Assembly (NCBI GenBank): GCA_016209155.1
Contig: JACQWU010000333.1
Location: forward strand, 1 to 13,207
Direction: 5' to 3'
Source of the DNA: Candidatus Desantisiibacteriota bacterium
GTDB lineage: Bacteria; JACRDZ01
Length of the DNA stretch: 13,207 nucleotides
In this document: positions 1,689 through 13,207 of the stretch, piece after piece
Numbering within the stretch: position 1 is the first letter of the stretch
Layout: the number at the start of each line of letters is the position of its first letter
Program-made: the position numbers and the translations under genes
The notes under the pieces: generated by a model
Told to the model about the DNA's origin: nothing
Seen by the model: the letters and a program-made list of their open reading frames with translations, nothing else
The model's database searches: none

Positions 1689-3569
1689 TTATTCAACTGT
1701 TACTATGTTATATACTTCTTCCTGTCCTTTATCTGAAAAATATTTTAGTTTATATTTTCCTTTTGATAATCCCCTGGGGAACTTTAATTGTATTGTATCA
1801 GATTCTAATGAATCAAAGAATTGAATTTTTATTGGATTTTTGAAAACCAGTATTCCTTTACCAGAATCAAACATAAATATATATTTATCAGATACCTTAA
1901 TTCTGTCCGCATAGTAAAAAGACGGGAATGTATCGATTATATAGGGATTCGCATTGTCTTTTATATTCATAATTGTAAAGCCCGATCCTGTACTGTAAAT
2001 ATAAAGATAATCTCCATTTATATCAAAATCATTGAAATTCTGTTTTATTCCAATTTCTTTTATTAATTTAGGATTTGAAGAATCTTTAACATTCAATACA
2101 TGGATGGCTTTTGAAAAAGCAATAAATGCAAAATCATTTTTTAATACAATTTTCAAACCTTCACATGGATAACCCTTAATATCCTTCCCATATTCACCAA
2201 TGCGAAGCGGATATTGTTTATCTGATATATCAATCATTTCAAGACCGCTCACATGACCTTTTTCAGCTATATAAGCAATATCGTTTTTTATTTGAATATC
2301 AACCAGATTCCCTTTAGTTTTATATCCGCCGCTAAAGGCAGGATTTTTGGGATCCGAAATATCTATAATAAGAAGATAATAGTTATTCTTTTCTTCTTTA
2401 TTTGAATTTTTTTCTCCAATTGTAAGATAAGCAAATTTATCATCTGCAAAAATACTTATCGGATATCCCTTTTCACCCGCAAATCTTGGTTTGTAATTAT
2501 ATTTAGACAGGATTTCAATATTTAAAATATCATGAATACTTGCAATGGTAAATCCATTTTTATCTACAATATAGATAAGCTTATCTTTAATAAACATTTT
2601 CATTCCGTTTAAATCTTTATTGCTTGCTATGAGTTTAAAATTATCATCAATATCATATATTTTTAATCCATCAATAATACTTATCAGATAATGTTCAAAT
2701 ATAATCATATCTTTATCAGGAGTTTCCGAATTTTTATCGAGAGTTGTTTCATATAGCGGGTTAAGGTTTGCTATGGGTTCTCTATTAATAGTAAGTCCTC
2801 TATCATTTTCAATAAAAAAAGTATTATCCTTTATCGCAAAAGCATCCGCTGCGGAGTCTGAAATTTGCTTGCAAATAATCTCATTAAAATGCCCTGCATT
2901 TTCTTCAAATACTCTAAGATAATTTTTTTCCCCATTGTCTTTAAAATGTTTTAATTGTAATGCATATATTTTTTTATTTTCATATTTTACGGATAAAATT
3001 TTTTCCGCTGAAAATTCATTTGTTATAATATTCTCTGTTATTTTAGGTGTAGGGTTAAATTTAACGACATCGATTGATTTTTCTGTTACAATAAAACTTC
3101 TATGATTATTCGTATCAATGATAAAATCATTATAGTTTCTGCTTAAATTAAAATTTTCTGAAAATGTTTTTAAAAAATAATTTTTCAATAACGGATTGTT
3201 ATCTTTTAAATTATATTCATACAATTCCAATACCATATTGCTAAATGCAGGGATGTAAAATTTATTATTAAAATATCTTATAGATCCCAGTTGATTATTT
3301 ATCTGTATATTATTAATAAATTTGATATATTCAGGTGATGTATAATCGTAAATATTTAATCCTTTTTTACTTAAAATCATTATTTTTTGCCTATTAGCAT
3401 TGGCAATAATATCCGTTATTTCGATTCCGGACAAATAAACAAATACTCCCTGAATTGAAGGATTCTCGCGCTTCTCGCTGATTTTAATATCGTCTATTTT
3501 AATAATATTACGTATATCTTCAATATTTAATATTCTGACACCATATTTTTCATCAACAAGAAATAACAA
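1689..3569 (-). CDS. LVIVD-type beta-propeller protein, C-terminal part of a probably split gene
   Basis: 626 codons read from a TTG at 3569. Repeated blades with LVIVD-like cores are visible: LLIIDISDPKNP (399-410), GLEMIDISD (442-450), IHVLNVKDSSNP (489-500), FTIMNIKDNANP (531-542), each preceded by an 'N-D-I-A-Y-I-A' type strand. A small C-terminal beta segment (about 581-626) follows the propeller. There is no signal peptide, although such proteins act outside the cytoplasm, and the frame starts inside a blade (LLFLVDEKYGVRILNIED). The TTG has no convincing ribosome site, and a TGA lies directly upstream in the same frame. It overlaps the upstream LVIVD frame by 17 bases in another frame. 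Together these suggest that the two frames are one gene broken by an indel, or by a deletion between repeats. Function is unknown; LVIVD repeats are usually surface or periplasmic. Confidence 0.75.
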   Translation of the reverse strand: MLFLVDEKYGVRILNIEDIRNIIKIDDIKISEKRENPSIQGVFVYLSGIEITDIIANANRQKIMILSKKGLNIYDYTSPEYIKFINNIQINNQLGSIRYFNNKFYIPAFSNMVLELYEYNLKDNNPLLKNYFLKTFSENFNLSRNYNDFIIDTNNHRSFIVTEKSIDVVKFNPTPKITENIITNEFSAEKILSVKYENKKIYALQLKHFKDNGEKNYLRVFEENAGHFNEIICKQISDSAADAFAIKDNTFFIENDRGLTINREPIANLNPLYETTLDKNSETPDKDMIIFEHYLISIIDGLKIYDIDDNFKLIASNKDLNGMKMFIKDKLIYIVDKNGFTIASIHDILNIEILSKYNYKPRFAGEKGYPISIFADDKFAYLTIGEKNSNKEEKNNYYLLIIDISDPKNPAFSGGYKTKGNLVDIQIKNDIAYIAEKGHVSGLEMIDISDKQYPLRIGEYGKDIKGYPCEGLKIVLKNDFAFIAFSKAIHVLNVKDSSNPKLIKEIGIKQNFNDFDINGDYLYIYSTGSGFTIMNIKDNANPYIIDTFPSFYYADRIKVSDKYIFMFDSGKGILVFKNPIKIQFFDSLESDTIQLKFPRGLSKGKYKLKYFSDKGQEEVYNIVTVE

Positions 3570-4956
3570 TCAAACCCTGCTCGCGGTCAGCAATATAGGC
3601 AATATTATTTTTGATTTCAATATACTCTATATTTCCTGAAAAAGAAAAAAAGTTTTTAACCTCCACCTTCTCAGGATCAAAAAAATCATAACTGGTTATT
3701 CCTTCTTTTACCTGCCCATAACCCGGCTCACCTGTTCTTTCAAAAAAATTCTTTCTAAATACTTTATATTTACTTAAATCAAGTTTAAATATGTCATTCT
3801 TGTTCAATTTTTTTATTGAATGATTTTCATCAATTGCGAATATTTCGGACCTCTGCTTACTTGAAAAAGTAAAAAAATACTTATCCATATAAAAAATAAA
3901 CTGACAATCATAATTTAATTTAAACATATCAATATACTTAGGATTATTATAGTCATCAAAATTAAATACTAATAAACGTTCTTTTTCCTCGTTTCCCTCA
4001 AAAATACTCATGTTTAGTGAAATAAATAATAAATCTTTTTGAAATGTATAATATATTGGAGGGATGGGTATATTAGTATTACTTTTCTCCAAAATTAAAT
4101 TGTAATTTTTATAAATGGAATTATCTTCAATAAAATTAGATACATCTTTAATTGCAGGATTTGCCGGATTTGTTATATCTATTGATATGATATTAATATT
4201 TTTATTTGTCTGTTTATTTAACCTTGCTTCCAAATTATAATTAGTCACCAATAATTTCTTATTTCTATATCCGGCAAAATAATACATATTTTTATTTAAA
4301 TCTATTTTTGAAATTAATTTAGGATTTTTAGGCATGTCAAACTCAAAGCACATAAAACCTTTGGATGTCAGCAAATATAAATTTTTTTCATCAAGATACA
4401 TATCTCTTATATCTGATTCATTATTATCGTCCATAGCATTTTTATTGATTTTGGTAATCAGAAGCGGAGTTGATGGATTTTTTATATCAAAAACAATTAT
4501 AGTTTCATCTGTTTTCGCATCTGATGAATCAGGTATATTCAGCAAAATAAGTTTGTCATTTTTTATTTTTAAATACTTCCCTATACCATTATCATCATAA
4601 GTAAAACAAAGTTTTATTTTTTTTAAGTTTGATATATCAAACACCATTAAAATATGACCGCGATAATTACCCCAGGCAAAGATATAATTTCCATATTGAA
4701 TTATTTCTTGTGAACCTGTGCGGGAATGCAAAAAAATATTACTTATGAAATCCGTTCCATATACATAATCTGAAGTCAAATAAAAGGAACCTTCTTTGTT
4801 AAAATTATTAACATGAAAAAGTATTGTTGTATCATTATAAGTATTGATTTTAACTGCCGGTTTTTCTTCCGGATTATTTCCTCTTATTGCACAAGGGCAG
4901 AAAGTTATTATAAATAACAAAAAAATAAATTGATTTAGAAATTTAATTTTCTCCAT
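3553..4956 (-). CDS. Exported LVIVD-type beta-propeller protein, N-terminal part of a probably split gene
   Basis: 467 residues. Residues 1 to about 26 form a signal peptide (M-E-K-I-K, then a long Phe/Ile/Leu core ending in F-C-P-C-A-I-R-G). The cysteines do not make a standard lipobox, so signal peptidase I cleavage is more likely. Propeller-like repeats follow: VFDIKNPSTPLLITKI, FEFDMPKNPKLISKI, SIDITNPANPAIKDV, and the terminal blade strand NNIAYIADREQGLIVIS before the TGA at 3553-3555. The frame ends in the middle of a blade, exactly where the overlapping downstream frame begins in the middle of a blade. The start has GGAG seven bases upstream. It is the first gene of a minus-strand operon with the downstream frame and the DUF2141 gene, and has a long leader. 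No enzymatic motif is seen; a structural or binding role outside the cytoplasm is inferred. Confidence 0.78.
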   Translation of the reverse strand: MEKIKFLNQFIFLLFIITFCPCAIRGNNPEEKPAVKINTYNDTTILFHVNNFNKEGSFYLTSDYVYGTDFISNIFLHSRTGSQEIIQYGNYIFAWGNYRGHILMVFDISNLKKIKLCFTYDDNGIGKYLKIKNDKLILLNIPDSSDAKTDETIIVFDIKNPSTPLLITKINKNAMDDNNESDIRDMYLDEKNLYLLTSKGFMCFEFDMPKNPKLISKIDLNKNMYYFAGYRNKKLLVTNYNLEARLNKQTNKNINIISIDITNPANPAIKDVSNFIEDNSIYKNYNLILEKSNTNIPIPPIYYTFQKDLLFISLNMSIFEGNEEKERLLVFNFDDYNNPKYIDMFKLNYDCQFIFYMDKYFFTFSSKQRSEIFAIDENHSIKKLNKNDIFKLDLSKYKVFRKNFFERTGEPGYGQVKEGITSYDFFDPEKVEVKNFFSFSGNIEYIEIKNNIAYIADREQGLIVISC

Positions 4957-5326: not shown

Positions 5327-6343
5327 ATGATAATAGTACTCAGGCCTGATGCAACTGAAGAACAAATTAAACATATTTGCGATAAGCTGACAGCTCTTGG
5401 AGTTAAAGTAAATATTTCTAAAGGTGTAGAAAGAACAGTAATCGGGGCTATCGGACCTGAAGACGTGCTAAGAACGCATCCTCTGGAAACTTTTCCGGGG
5501 GTAGAGGAAGTTATGGCTATTTTAAAACCATATAAATTTGCCAGCCGTGAATTCAAAAAAGAAGATACCCTTATTAAAATAGATAATATCACTATTGGCG
5601 GTAGTAGAATCATTGTAATGGCAGGTCCATGTTCTATTGAAAACAAAGAAATGATGTTTGAACTCGGGAAAACAGTTAAAAATTCCGGTGCTCATGTAAT
5701 TCGCGGCGGTGCTTTTAAACCCAGGACATCTCCTTATGATTTTCAGGGTTTAGGAGAAGAAGGCTTAAAAATTCTGGTTGAAGTGAAAAAGAAAATCGGA
5801 CTTCCTGTGGTTACTGAAGTTATGGACACAAGGGATGTAGAGTCAGTTGTTGAACATGCGGATATTATCCAGATCGGTGCAAGAAACATGCAAAATTTCA
5901 ATCTTTTAAAGGAAGTCGGTAAATACCGCAAACCTGTTCTTTTAAAAAGAGGAATATCCGCTACAATTAAAGAATTTTTAATGTCAGCTGAATATATAAT
6001 GTCTGAAGGCAATAATAATGTAATTTTATGCGAACGGGGGATAAGGACTTTTTCTTCCGATGAGACAAGAAATACTCTCGACTTAAGCGCTATTCCTGTT
6101 TTAAAAAGACTGACTCATTTGCCTATCGTTGTTGATCCAAGTCATGCCGTCGGCAGATGGTACCTTGTGGAATCAATGGCAAAAGCATCTATTGCAGCCG
6201 GCTGTGACGGATTAATCATCGAGGTACATCACTGCCCGGAAGAAGCATTTTCCGATGGCGCACAATCTCTTTTGCCGCATAAATTTGAAAAATTAATGCA
6301 ATCCTTAAAACCTGTTGCAGAAGCTATAGGAAGAAGTTTTTAG
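5327..6343 (+). CDS. aroF: 3-deoxy-7-phosphoheptulonate (DAHP) synthase, type I-beta with N-terminal regulatory domain
   Basis: It condenses phosphoenolpyruvate and erythrose 4-phosphate to DAHP, the first step of the shikimate pathway, in the cytoplasm. Residues 1 to about 70 form a ferredoxin-like (ACT-like) domain starting [14 protein letters not shown], as in Thermotoga maritima DAHP synthase, where it gives feedback inhibition by Tyr/Phe. The TIM barrel follows (about 90-338) with MAGPCSIEN (98-106), [12 protein letters not shown] (126-137), GARNMQN (184-190), LLKRG (205-209) and VVDPSHAVG (268-276). The likely metal ligands are C102, H273, E299 and D310. The length of 338 equals the Thermotoga enzyme. 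The start has AGGAGA six bases upstream and its own promoter. The stop is followed after eight bases by tyrA. Function is secure; aroF, aroG and aroA(G) are interchangeable names in such genomes, and Tyr/Phe control is inferred from the domain. Confidence 0.97.
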
Positions 6344-6351
6344 GGGTATAA

Positions 6352-7212
6352 ATGGAAATATATTTTAATAAAATAACCATTATAGGATTGGGATTAATCG
6401 GGGGTTCAATTGCTCTGTCCTTAAAAGAAAAAAATAAAAATATTCAAATCACAGGAATAGGCAGAAATGAAGCGAATTTAAAAAAAGCAAAAGACAAAAA
6501 CATTATAGACCAGTATTATCTTAATCCCGGGGATGGGGTTGGTGATTCGGATCTTATTATTCTGGCTACTCCGGTAAAAACTATATGTAGTATGATTTCT
6601 GATATCGCTCCTTTTGTGAAGAAAGGAGCTGTAATTACAGATGTCGGAAGCTCCAAATCATCCATAATAAATTATGTTGATAAAATAAAAGATAAAAACT
6701 TTATTTTTGTCGGATCTCATCCCATGGCCGGCTCGGAAAAAAAAGGTGTGGATAATGCGGCCCCGAATTTATTTCTTAATTCTATATGTTTTGTTACTAA
6801 AAATAAGCAAACTGATCCATATTTCTTAAATAAAATTAAAGAATTATGGATAATTTTAGGCGCAGCCATAATAGAAATTTCGCCTGAAGATCATGATAAC
6901 ATTGTAGCGCTTACCAGCCATCTTCCGCATATACTTGCTGTTGCATTGGTTAACATGGTATATGACCAAAACAAAAACAACCAACAAATAAAGCTCGGCA
7001 TCTCAAGCGGATTTAAAGATACTACCCGCATTGCTTCAGGAGATCCTGATATGTGGAAAGATATTTGTATTTCAAATAAAACTTTCATTCTTAAAAAAAT
7101 TAATGATTTAAGATTGGAATTATTTAAAATGGAAACATTAATACAAATGGAGGATGAAGAAGGACTTTATAAAAAATTTTATAATGCAAAACATTGTCGT
7201 GATAATCTATAA
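6352..7212 (+). CDS. tyrA: Prephenate dehydrogenase
   Basis: It oxidises and decarboxylates prephenate to 4-hydroxyphenylpyruvate with NAD(P)+, leading to tyrosine. The N-terminal Rossmann domain carries IIGLGLIGGS (10-19), with D97 in ITDVGSSK. Catalytic and substrate features are SHPMAGSEKKG (122-132, with H123), TSHLPH (188-193) and RIASGDPDMWKDI (226-238), where the Arg binds the prephenate side chain in this family. The 286-residue monofunctional form lacks both a fused chorismate mutase and a C-terminal ACT domain, so feedback control may rest on the aroF product. An AGGGG-like ribosome site is at the end of aroF, and the eight-base gap implies translational coupling. The family also includes arogenate dehydrogenases (TyrAa); the cofactor and substrate choice cannot be read with certainty. 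Confidence 0.95.
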   Translation: MEIYFNKITIIGLGLIGGSIALSLKEKNKNIQITGIGRNEANLKKAKDKNIIDQYYLNPGDGVGDSDLIILATPVKTICSMISDIAPFVKKGAVITDVGSSKSSIINYVDKIKDKNFIFVGSHPMAGSEKKGVDNAAPNLFLNSICFVTKNKQTDPYFLNKIKELWIILGAAIIEISPEDHDNIVALTSHLPHILAVALVNMVYDQNKNNQQIKLGISSGFKDTTRIASGDPDMWKDICISNKTFILKKINDLRLELFKMETLIQMEDEEGLYKKFYNAKHCRDNL

Positions 7213-7244
7213 TTTTTAAATATAGCGCGAAGCTAAAGCTATAC

Positions 7245-7312
7245 GTTTGTAGTGCGAGGCTTCAGCCTCGCCAATCGTTACATTTTTTATGTTTGTTGTG
7301 CCTCGCTAATCG
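7245..7312. repeat. Palindromic dispersed-type repeat, one intact and one decayed copy
   Basis: GCGAGGCT-TC-AGCCTCGC (7254-7271) is a perfect 8-bp inverted repeat embedded in a unit running 7245-7277 (GTTTGTAGTG, palindrome, CAATCG). A second unit, 7291-7312 (GTTTGTTGTG, CCTCGC, TAATCG), matches the first unit but lacks about 11 bases, the left arm and centre of the palindrome. A third related piece, GCGCGAAGCTAAAGCT, lies at 7225-7240. It fills the 116-base gap between tyrA and the next gene. There is no T-run, so it is not an obvious terminator. GC-rich 'gaggcttcagcctc' palindromes are a common dispersed repeat type in several uncultured lineages (general knowledge, not searched). Confidence 0.65.
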
Positions 7313-7328
7313 CGGATAAAAGGTTAAT

Positions 7329-7883
7329 ATGGCTGAAATTATAATCAAATTTCCTTATAAAAAAATAAATATTCCCGGCAATTGTTCACATTGCGGAAAT
7401 TATACAGTTAAGCAATCTATTGAAATAACCAGACCTTCTCTAAATAATAGAAGTACTAACAGAGAATGGGATGCCATAGTAAATAAACCCATGCGTGTGA
7501 ATTTATTTCTAAATCTTTGTGAAGAGTGCTTCAAAAAATTAAAAAATAAAAAAAGGAAAGCAATTTTTTTTAGTATAATATTTTTTATTTCCATGATTAT
7601 AGGATTATGGTATTTTATTTTACCCGTAATACAAAATATTTCCGAAAATCAAAGCGGACAGGCCGCGGGATTATTGTTCGTTATTTTAAGTATGATATCG
7701 CTATTCCTGATATTTTTTATGATAGGATTTCCATCAGTAATAACCAACCGTTTTATCGGTATGCAGATATTATCTTATAATCCCCGCAAAATAACAATTA
7801 GATTTTACAATGAAGTACTGGCAAATAAATTTTTTGATCTCAACAATATAACCGAAGAGCATATTATCAAAAGAAAAAAATAA
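7329..7883 (+). CDS. Hypothetical two-TM protein with paired CxxC motifs, inside the aro operon
   Basis: I do not recognise this 184-residue protein. The N-terminal soluble part has C19-S-H-C22 and, 42 residues later, C64-E-E-C67, a spacing that could form a zinc-ribbon-like metal site. Two hydrophobic helices follow (about 78-101 and 112-134), with a Lys/Arg-rich stretch (69-77: K-K-L-K-N-K-K-R-K) just before the first, which favours a cytoplasmic N-terminus. The C-terminal 45 residues are a mixed, strand-like segment ending in basic residues. AAAAGG precedes the ATG by seven bases, and the gene ends 20 bases before aroA, so it is co-transcribed with the aromatic genes. Nothing in it suggests an enzyme of that pathway. 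It may be an inserted passenger, since the repeat cluster lies directly upstream. Confidence 0.75.
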   Translation: MAEIIIKFPYKKINIPGNCSHCGNYTVKQSIEITRPSLNNRSTNREWDAIVNKPMRVNLFLNLCEECFKKLKNKKRKAIFFSIIFFISMIIGLWYFILPVIQNISENQSGQAAGLLFVILSMISLFLIFFMIGFPSVITNRFIGMQILSYNPRKITIRFYNEVLANKFFDLNNITEEHIIKRKK

Positions 7884-7903
7884 AAAATTCAGGATCGGAG
7901 CTT

Positions 7904-9220
7904 ATGAATAGTAAATTAAAAATCAATTCGACTTTAAAAATTAAACCAATTAATTATTTTAAAGGAGAAACCGAAGTTCAAGGTGATAAATCCATATCTC
8001 ATAGGGCTATTCTATTAGGCGGATTATTAGAAGGCTCAATAACAATAAATAATTTTTTGGAATCTGAGGATACTTTAAATACCGCCAGGGCCTATCAAAA
8101 AATGGGAATAGAAATAAAAGGACTGGAGACAAAAAATGTAACAATTAAAGGAAAAGGATTAAACGGATTGATTGAACCTGATGGGATATTGGATCTCGGT
8201 AATTCAGGAACATCCATGCGGTTATTACTCGGAATTCTTTCCGGACAGAATTTTTATTCTGTTGTTACCGGTGATAAATCCTTATGCAGGCGGCCTATGC
8301 AAAGGGTGACAATTCCACTTAAAAAAATGGGAGCATTGATTTACGGCCGTGAAAAAGCCAACTTTGCTCCTTTAACTATCATCGGAAAAAAATTAAACGG
8401 AATAAATTTTAAAAGTAATGTTTCCAGTGCTCAGGTAAAATCATGTCTTATTCTTGCCGGTCTATTTGCTAAAGGAACAACTGTTGTAACTGAACCCATT
8501 TTATCAAGGGATCATACAGAACGAATGCTGGCATATTTCGGCGCTAATATAAAAAAGAAAAATATACTGACAACTTCTATCACATCTAAAAAAAAGCTTT
8601 TGGCAAAAGATATATTCGTACCGGGAGATATCTCATCTGCGGCATATTTTATTATAGGAGCCTTAATTCTTAAAAATTCAAAAGTGACCATAAAAAATGT
8701 GGGGATTAATCCCACCAGAACCGGTATTTTAGATATTCTTAAAAATATGGGAGCAAAAATAACACTCACAAATTACCGGAATATTAACGATGAACCAGTT
8801 GCTGACATTACTGCCTGCTCGTCTAAACTTAATGGAACAGAAATAAGCGGAGATATAATCCCGAGACTGATCGACGAAATACCTATAATTGCTATAGCAG
8901 CGGCATGCGCGGACGGGGAAACAATTATTAAAAATGCAGGGGAGTTAAGAGTTAAAGAATCAGACAGAATTAAAACCGTTACAAATGGTCTCACTACACT
9001 CGGGATAAAAGTTAAAGAATTACCTGACGGCATGATTATACGCGGAGGAATGTTTTCCGCAGGCAATAAAAAATTTAACAGTTACGGTGATCACCGGATC
9101 GCAATGTCATTTGCAATTGCAGGACTTAAAATACAAGGCGGCATTGTTATTAATGATACTGATTGTATTAATACATCCTTCCCTGAATTTACAAATATAT
9201 TAAAAAATCTATCGTATTAA
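7904..9220 (+). CDS. aroA: 3-phosphoshikimate 1-carboxyvinyltransferase (EPSP synthase)
   Basis: It transfers the enolpyruvyl group of phosphoenolpyruvate to shikimate 3-phosphate, the sixth shikimate step. All family blocks are present in the 438 residues: VQGDKSISHRA (25-35, with the PEP/S3P-binding K29, S30, R34), LDLGNSGTSMRL (96-107), RRPMQRV (129-135), SSAQVKSCLILAGL (174-187), SRDHTERML (201-209), GDISSAAYF (241-249), IDEIP (323-327, catalytic Asp D324), RVKESDRI (349-356) and SYGDHRIAM (393-401). The SAQVKS and SRDHTERM blocks are closer to the Gram-positive-like (class II-type) enzymes than to E. coli AroA. The ribosome site AGGATCGGAG is at 7891-7900. The gene lies last in the aro operon, and its stop overlaps the stop of the convergent ecfT gene. 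Confidence 0.97.
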   Translation: MNSKLKINSTLKIKPINYFKGETEVQGDKSISHRAILLGGLLEGSITINNFLESEDTLNTARAYQKMGIEIKGLETKNVTIKGKGLNGLIEPDGILDLGNSGTSMRLLLGILSGQNFYSVVTGDKSLCRRPMQRVTIPLKKMGALIYGREKANFAPLTIIGKKLNGINFKSNVSSAQVKSCLILAGLFAKGTTVVTEPILSRDHTERMLAYFGANIKKKNILTTSITSKKKLLAKDIFVPGDISSAAYFIIGALILKNSKVTIKNVGINPTRTGILDILKNMGAKITLTNYRNINDEPVADITACSSKLNGTEISGDIIPRLIDEIPIIAIAAACADGETIIKNAGELRVKESDRIKTVTNGLTTLGIKVKELPDGMIIRGGMFSAGNKKFNSYGDHRIAMSFAIAGLKIQGGIVINDTDCINTSFPEFTNILKNLSY

Positions 9221-11908: not shown

Positions 11909-12808
11909 TTAAGCATCTAATATTTTTCGATAGTAATCTTCATATTGTGTGACAATTTTGGCAAGAGAAAAATGCATTTCAACAAAATCTCTTGAAAAAA
12001 ATCTCATTTTATTCTGGATTTTTTCATTTTTTAAAATCTTTAAAGCCATATTCCCGGCACTTGCAATATCACCGGGTTCAACCAAAAAACCGTTTTTCCC
12101 TGATTTTATTATTTCAAGTAATCCTCCAACATTTGTAGCTATAACAGGGACCCCGCAGCTCATTGCTTCTATTGCCACAAGACCAAAACTTTCATTTTCC
12201 GAAAGCAGAAGCAGCAAATCGCTGTTTTTTAAAATATTTTCTATATCATCACGTTCTCCAATAAAATCCACATGTTTTTCAATTTTCATGGTTTTTACCA
12301 GATTTTCCGCTTTATGTCTTTCCGGACCATCACCTACCATGAGTAATATAGCCGGTATTTGTTTCTGAATTAAAAAAAAAGTATTAATAATATGCGGCAA
12401 ATTTTTTATCGGCCGGATGGGATCCATTCCTAAAAGACGTATATCTGTTCCATGCAGAGTTGTAATTATTTTGGTATTGCATTTTCCGGCCATTTCACGT
12501 GCAAGATATGCAGAGGTGGAATGTGGAATTGCATAATGCACATGAAGGATATCGAGCTTATGAATTTTAATACATTCATACATCTTTGAAGCCAGAGCCA
12601 TTGTATAAGGAGGAAATTTAAATAATGGATACGGTACCACATCAACTTTATAAAAATTTATCTTATTTATGGATTTTTTAATTCTCTGCGGCAGATCATA
12701 GCAAATAAAATATACCTCGTGTCCGCGATTTAATAATTCCAGACCCAATTCACATGCAATTGTACTGCTTCCCCCGTAAGTAGGATAACAGGTAATACCT
12801 ATCTTCAT
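11909..12808 (-). CDS. bshA: BshA-type glycosyltransferase (N-acetyl-glucosaminyl L-malate synthase) with an internal deletion
   Basis: BshA joins UDP-GlcNAc to L-malate, the first step of bacillithiol synthesis. The start MKIGITCYPTYGGSSTIACE, then FICYDLP, YPLFKFPPYTMALASKM, LDILHVHYAIPHSTSAYLA and TTLHGTD are characteristic of BshA. After G-M-D-P the sequence jumps straight to RPIKNLPHII, LLMVGDGPE, the nucleotide-sugar site ENESFGLVAIEAMSCGVPVI and NVGGLLEII. Known BshA proteins have about 75-80 more residues between those points (last part of the N-domain, linker, first strand of the C-domain). The product has 299 residues; the family usually has about 375-380. The reading frame is intact, so this is a clean in-frame deletion, real or from assembly. 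The ATG at 12808 is preferred: GGAG is eight bases upstream, and the protein then begins as BshA does. A TTG ten codons earlier is less likely. bshC ends 17 bases upstream. Confidence 0.85.
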   Translation of the reverse strand: MKIGITCYPTYGGSSTIACELGLELLNRGHEVYFICYDLPQRIKKSINKINFYKVDVVPYPLFKFPPYTMALASKMYECIKIHKLDILHVHYAIPHSTSAYLAREMAGKCNTKIITTLHGTDIRLLGMDPIRPIKNLPHIINTFFLIQKQIPAILLMVGDGPERHKAENLVKTMKIEKHVDFIGERDDIENILKNSDLLLLLSENESFGLVAIEAMSCGVPVIATNVGGLLEIIKSGKNGFLVEPGDIASAGNMALKILKNEKIQNKMRFFSRDFVEMHFSLAKIVTQYEDYYRKILDA

Positions 12809-12825
12809 ACGAAAATCTCCGTAAT

Positions 12826-13207
12826 TTATTTCACACAAAAAATATTATGCCCGGGTTTATCAATGATTAACGATTGATATAAAATTTTTAAAAAATCTTC
12901 CCCGTATTTATTAAGAAAATAATAAATATTCAGCTTTCTTTCTTGAAAATCTTCTTCCGGCAGTAAATTATTAAATAGCTTAGAAATCTGTCTGACAATT
13001 ATTTGCTCGTTCATTTCTATTTTTCGCCAGACTCTATTTTCTATTTTTTCAACTGCATCATTTATTGGTTTAATGCTTTTATTATATATTGCAAAAAGTT
13101 CAGGATCAATTTTTTTCAAGTCTAAACTCATGTCATTTCCTGCAATTTCTAATGTGTTTTTAAATTTCTCAATTATTTTATCAATTCCTCCTGAATATTT
13201 ATTCTTA
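12826..13207 (-). CDS. bshC: BshC, bacillithiol biosynthesis cysteine-adding enzyme, C-terminal part (cut by window edge)
   Basis: The minus frame is open from the TAA at 12826-12828 through the end of the window; the first whole codon is 13204-13206 (126 residues visible). An ATG at 13131 is internal, and coding continues upstream of it (K-Y-S-G-G-I-D-K-I-I-E-K-F). The visible part matches the C-terminal coiled-coil and tail of BshC: alternating charged helices (about 28-75 of the visible part), then LLPEEDFQERKLNIYYFLNK, Y-G-E-D-F and a terminal H-N-I-F. The L-P-x-x-x-x-Q-E-R-x-x-N block is typical of that family. BshC adds cysteine to glucosaminyl-malate in the last step of bacillithiol synthesis. 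The next gene downstream, 17 bases away, is bshA, which strongly supports the call. The catalytic N-terminal part is outside the window. Confidence 0.82.
   Translation of the reverse strand, partial: KNKYSGGIDKIIEKFKNTLEIAGNDMSLDLKKIDPELFAIYNKSIKPINDAVEKIENRVWRKIEMNEQIIVRQISKLFNNLLPEEDFQERKLNIYYFLNKYGEDFLKILYQSLIIDKPGHNIFCVK

Follow-up and report, generated by a model that had tools for sequence, protein, structure and literature searches.

BshA is a GT-B glycosyltransferase of the GT4 family and catalyzes the opening step of bacillithiol synthesis, the coupling of GlcNAc with L-malate. In this study, we examined a bshA gene whose product was recognizable as BshA at both ends and lacked the sequence in the middle. 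The window, by which we mean the whole stretch of 13,207 nucleotides analyzed, is an entire contig (C304) of a draft assembly of 3.08 Mb, which comprises 352 contigs and is 78.8% complete. Three features of the window are relevant here:

Window 11909-12838, minus strand: bshA (N-acetyl-alpha-D-glucosaminyl L-malate synthase) lacking its central part, 309 aa, TIGR03999
Window 12416-12422, minus strand: the join, an ATC codon (I) between GMDP and RPIK, with about 68-75 codons absent according to the alignment of relatives; pLDDT below 50
Window 12826-13207, minus strand: 3' end of bshC, truncated at the contig end, TIGR03998 profile positions 411-527

The 309-aa reading begins at a TTG at 12838, and the start typical of the family, MKIG, is found at residue 11. 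In the profile search, the open reading frame scored 377 bits against TIGR03999, above the curated cut-off of 273.7, and was therefore assigned to the family. The match was made of two stretches, covering profile positions 1-132 and 208-374 of 375, with no sequence between them, so that 75 positions (133-207) were absent from the reading frame as assembled and the match was not continuous. The solved BshA structures 3mbo, 2jjm, 5d00 and 6d9t also aligned in two stretches, and the same two-part match was given by all five distinct solved BshA sequences. The initial annotation, which had described a BshA with an in-frame internal deletion, was thus right about the reading frame as it stands.

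Alignment with full-length BshA, which had been suggested as a check, showed a spacing between the DP and R residues of 71, 68 and 68 residues in three relatives of the same phylum, all with full-length bshA, versus one residue here. The loss amounted to about 67-70 residues relative to these closest relatives and to about 75 positions of the family profile, a little under the 75-80 residues first proposed. By alignment, the absent elements were those originally named, namely the end of the N-terminal domain, the interdomain linker and the first strand of the C-terminal domain with its SNF; the R and K of the SNFRxxK block are retained. The glycine-rich GGS near the N-terminus, HGTD and ESFG, which occupy invariant alignment columns, are also kept. 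The remaining residues were well conserved in the alignment with relatives and lay in a single open frame, in agreement with the initial annotation.

At the junction, the product reads G-M-D-P-I-R-P-I-K in one open frame without any N. The isoleucine, encoded by ATC (plus-strand positions 12416-12418), fits neither flank in the family alignment. This codon may be a fusion, its first base coming from the serine codon of the family's DPS and its other two from the phenylalanine codon of SNF. A GGATCC palindrome, to which attention had been drawn, is indeed present at 12420; it occurs again at 2350, and 0.8 copies are expected in the window by composition, so its position was attributed to chance and given no weight.

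The surroundings of bshA were also incomplete. The contig break falls inside bshC, 370 bp from bshA, which lies downstream of bshC in the same order as in one relative (G002, L055). The N-terminal part of bshC was found at the start of another contig (G000:C137:2-688; TIGR03998 profile positions 2-230), and about 180 profile positions were present in neither contig. The break and these missing positions indicated that the region around bshA was assembled badly. A complete bshB1 was found on C218, above the cut-off. The bshA gene is therefore accompanied in the genome by bshB and by bshC, the latter as two pieces at the ends of C137 and C304, and a complete bshB1 with bshC on both sides of the break indicated that the bacillithiol pathway is present. 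Elsewhere in the window, the minus strand carries two adjacent genes for large proteins with LVIVD beta-propeller repeats, whose ends overlap (1689-4956). On the plus strand (5327-9220), a cluster for aromatic amino acids was recognized by sequence inspection, with DAHP synthase, prephenate dehydrogenase-like and EPSP synthase-like genes and, among them, a gene for a small membrane protein.

A second bshA, another check suggested by the initial annotation, was not found in this assembly (79% complete), and the missing block was not found elsewhere in it, the best match (E = 0.08) being attributable to chance. A protein scan of the genome contigs, which may have omitted the closest records, returned distant glycosyltransferases only. 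Orthologues with the same short form, which had been named as evidence against an artefact, were absent from the phylum (4 genomes), from 60 genomes drawn as relatives and from two other phyla (139 and 132 genomes); about 149 other genomes in this survey had bshA above the cut-off. Apart from the gene studied here, a two-piece match above the cut-off was seen only in G288, where a run of 58 N inside the gene explained it. Shortened cases were located at contig ends or at N-runs, or were frameshifted (G143). In the frameshifted case (G143:C2, L058, 794-1474), bshA ends after SNFRP, and a bshB-like gene lies directly upstream. Since no orthologue in the survey shares the shortening, the gene could not be placed in a natural short-form GT-B group.

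An AlphaFold model of the short BshA was built with an alignment of 15 sequences. The remaining parts were placed as in full-length BshA, and 300 residues superposed on S. aureus BshA at 1.9 Å with a Z-score of 33.7; the only residues with a pLDDT below 50 were 1-5 and 134-142, the latter containing the join. A full-length relative modelled in the same way had a mean pLDDT of 91. Its model contains the elements missing here: helices 121-128 (in part), 131-141 and 151-160, the N-domain strands 145-148 and 167-169, and the first C-domain strand, 193-198. Nothing in the short model pointed to a minimal, rearranged fold, which is weak evidence because the alignment steers the prediction towards the fold of the family.

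We looked for misjoins in a partial and non-random sample of about 335 kb from this assembly. Three further internal losses without N were found, all with a frameshift:

C24 (L085) 14556-14700: pheS, about 24 codons lost near the N-terminus, frameshift, no N
C11 (L072) about 1545-1565, at base 1548: PPDK, profile position 530 followed by 651 (about 120 codons lost), frameshift, no N
C3 (L062) about 13816-13850: Mg P-type ATPase, profile position 264 followed by 312 (about 47 codons lost), frameshift, no N

In pheS, the N-terminal part ends in DELDKIK and is followed directly by RRETGKMANETAGKLDE (RRETGKMANETAGKL) in a different frame. The conserved VKYLG(K/R)xGELT stretch of about 24 residues, which is present in relatives, is absent. 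As pheS is an essential gene, and is present as a single copy in this assembly, its loss must be an artefact. PPDK is complete in all three relatives, and the PPDK and Mg-ATPase losses are most simply explained by the same artefact as that in pheS. N-less losses of the kind seen in bshA therefore occur in unrelated conserved genes of this assembly. About two dozen other conserved genes were free of them; these had been chosen as long open frames and so give no rate. A hydroxylamine reductase/hybrid-cluster protein of 426 aa (C51, L071, 18-1298) is missing about 95 profile positions downstream of its N-terminal cysteine motif. Hybrid-cluster proteins include a natural short class, to which this protein probably belongs, and it was set aside rather than counted as a misjoin.

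The scaffold gaps of the sampled contigs were also irregular. There were nine N-runs of 8-106 bases, several of them within genes. The flanks overlap by 16 bp at a run of 82 N (L072 3102-3183), by 10 bp at a run of 106 N (L081 1769-1874) and by 23 bp at a run of 11 N (L090 2303-2313), and the scaffolder overestimated the gap sizes at these three places. The gene for HU contains 10 N in place of the roughly 39 nt expected for the family; in the NCBIfam scan it had no match at the threshold used. Tandem duplications at blunt joins, considered as an additional sign of misjoining, were uninformative (four in 313 kb).

Considering all the above results, we concluded that the short bshA is an assembly artefact, a blunt scaffolding misjoin rather than a real feature, with a probability of roughly 0.9, and that in the organism itself bshC is very probably followed by a normal bshA of full length. 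The scaffolder would have placed contigs with a wrong distance estimate and joined two bshA pieces end to end without N, so that about 200-225 bp between them would have been dropped; the join would be in frame by chance, an outcome of one in three. We infer that it shares its cause with the other N-less losses and mis-sized gaps of the assembly. This explanation was favored by the losses in pheS, PPDK and Mg-ATPase together with the mis-sized scaffold gaps, by the break in bshC 370 bp away with its missing profile positions, and by the survey, in which no natural short form was seen and the G288 match reflected a gap. It was also favored by a model that keeps the full-length arrangement with low pLDDT at the join, and by residues as well conserved as in a working gene. 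Counting against it, the bshA frame is intact while the frames of the other three genes are broken, and no N marks the junction. A repeat collapse in a k-mer assembler was disfavored relative to a blunt join, as the family match on both sides reaches the join and a shared repeat could not be accommodated.

The intact frame and the N-less join would also fit a real deletion that arose recently and in frame in the strain sampled and inactivated BshA, so that bacillithiol is no longer made from this gene, and the absence of a second bshA and of any trace of the block elsewhere in the assembly agrees with it. However, in an assembly 79% complete, the absence of the block means little; bshB1 is intact, bshC is conserved at its two ends, and the N-less losses in the essential pheS and in PPDK cannot all be real. 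We therefore regard such a deletion as improbable. Far less probable still, indeed close to negligible, is a minimal BshA that would be active despite lacking the linker and the strands flanking it (the last ones of the N-domain and the first of the C-domain), as might be proposed from the open frame and from the retained glycine-rich start, HGTD, R/K and ESFG. No short orthologue was found in the three same-phylum genomes or in the about 149 others above the cut-off, and in the model the join has to span what is otherwise occupied by two N-domain strands, several helices and the first C-domain strand, with a pLDDT below 50 against a mean of 91 for the full-length relative. Of the three readings offered in the initial annotation (recent deletion, assembly or cloning collapse, minimal GT-B protein), assembly collapse was thus strongly favored by pheS, PPDK, Mg-ATPase and the gaps, and the minimal protein was unsupported.

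As a biological claim, the short bshA has no import. A short form that proved real and active would call into question whether GT-B enzymes need both complete Rossmann domains. The case is instructive as a caution: where a gene of a draft genome seems to have lost a domain in frame, the other genes of that assembly should be inspected for similar losses before an evolutionary reading is adopted.

Compared with known BshA (TIGR03999; 3mbo, 2jjm, 5d00/5d01, 6d9t, 6n1x), both remaining parts of the gene match above the curated cut-off. Unlike known BshA, the reading frame lacks profile positions 133-207, most likely through loss in assembly. The locus resembles the scaffolding and gap misjoins of draft genomes, in which sequence is lost at joins without N and N-gaps are mis-sized, as seen here in pheS, PPDK, Mg-ATPase and HU. 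In contrast to the other three N-less losses in this assembly, the bshA join is in frame and therefore resembles a protein variant.
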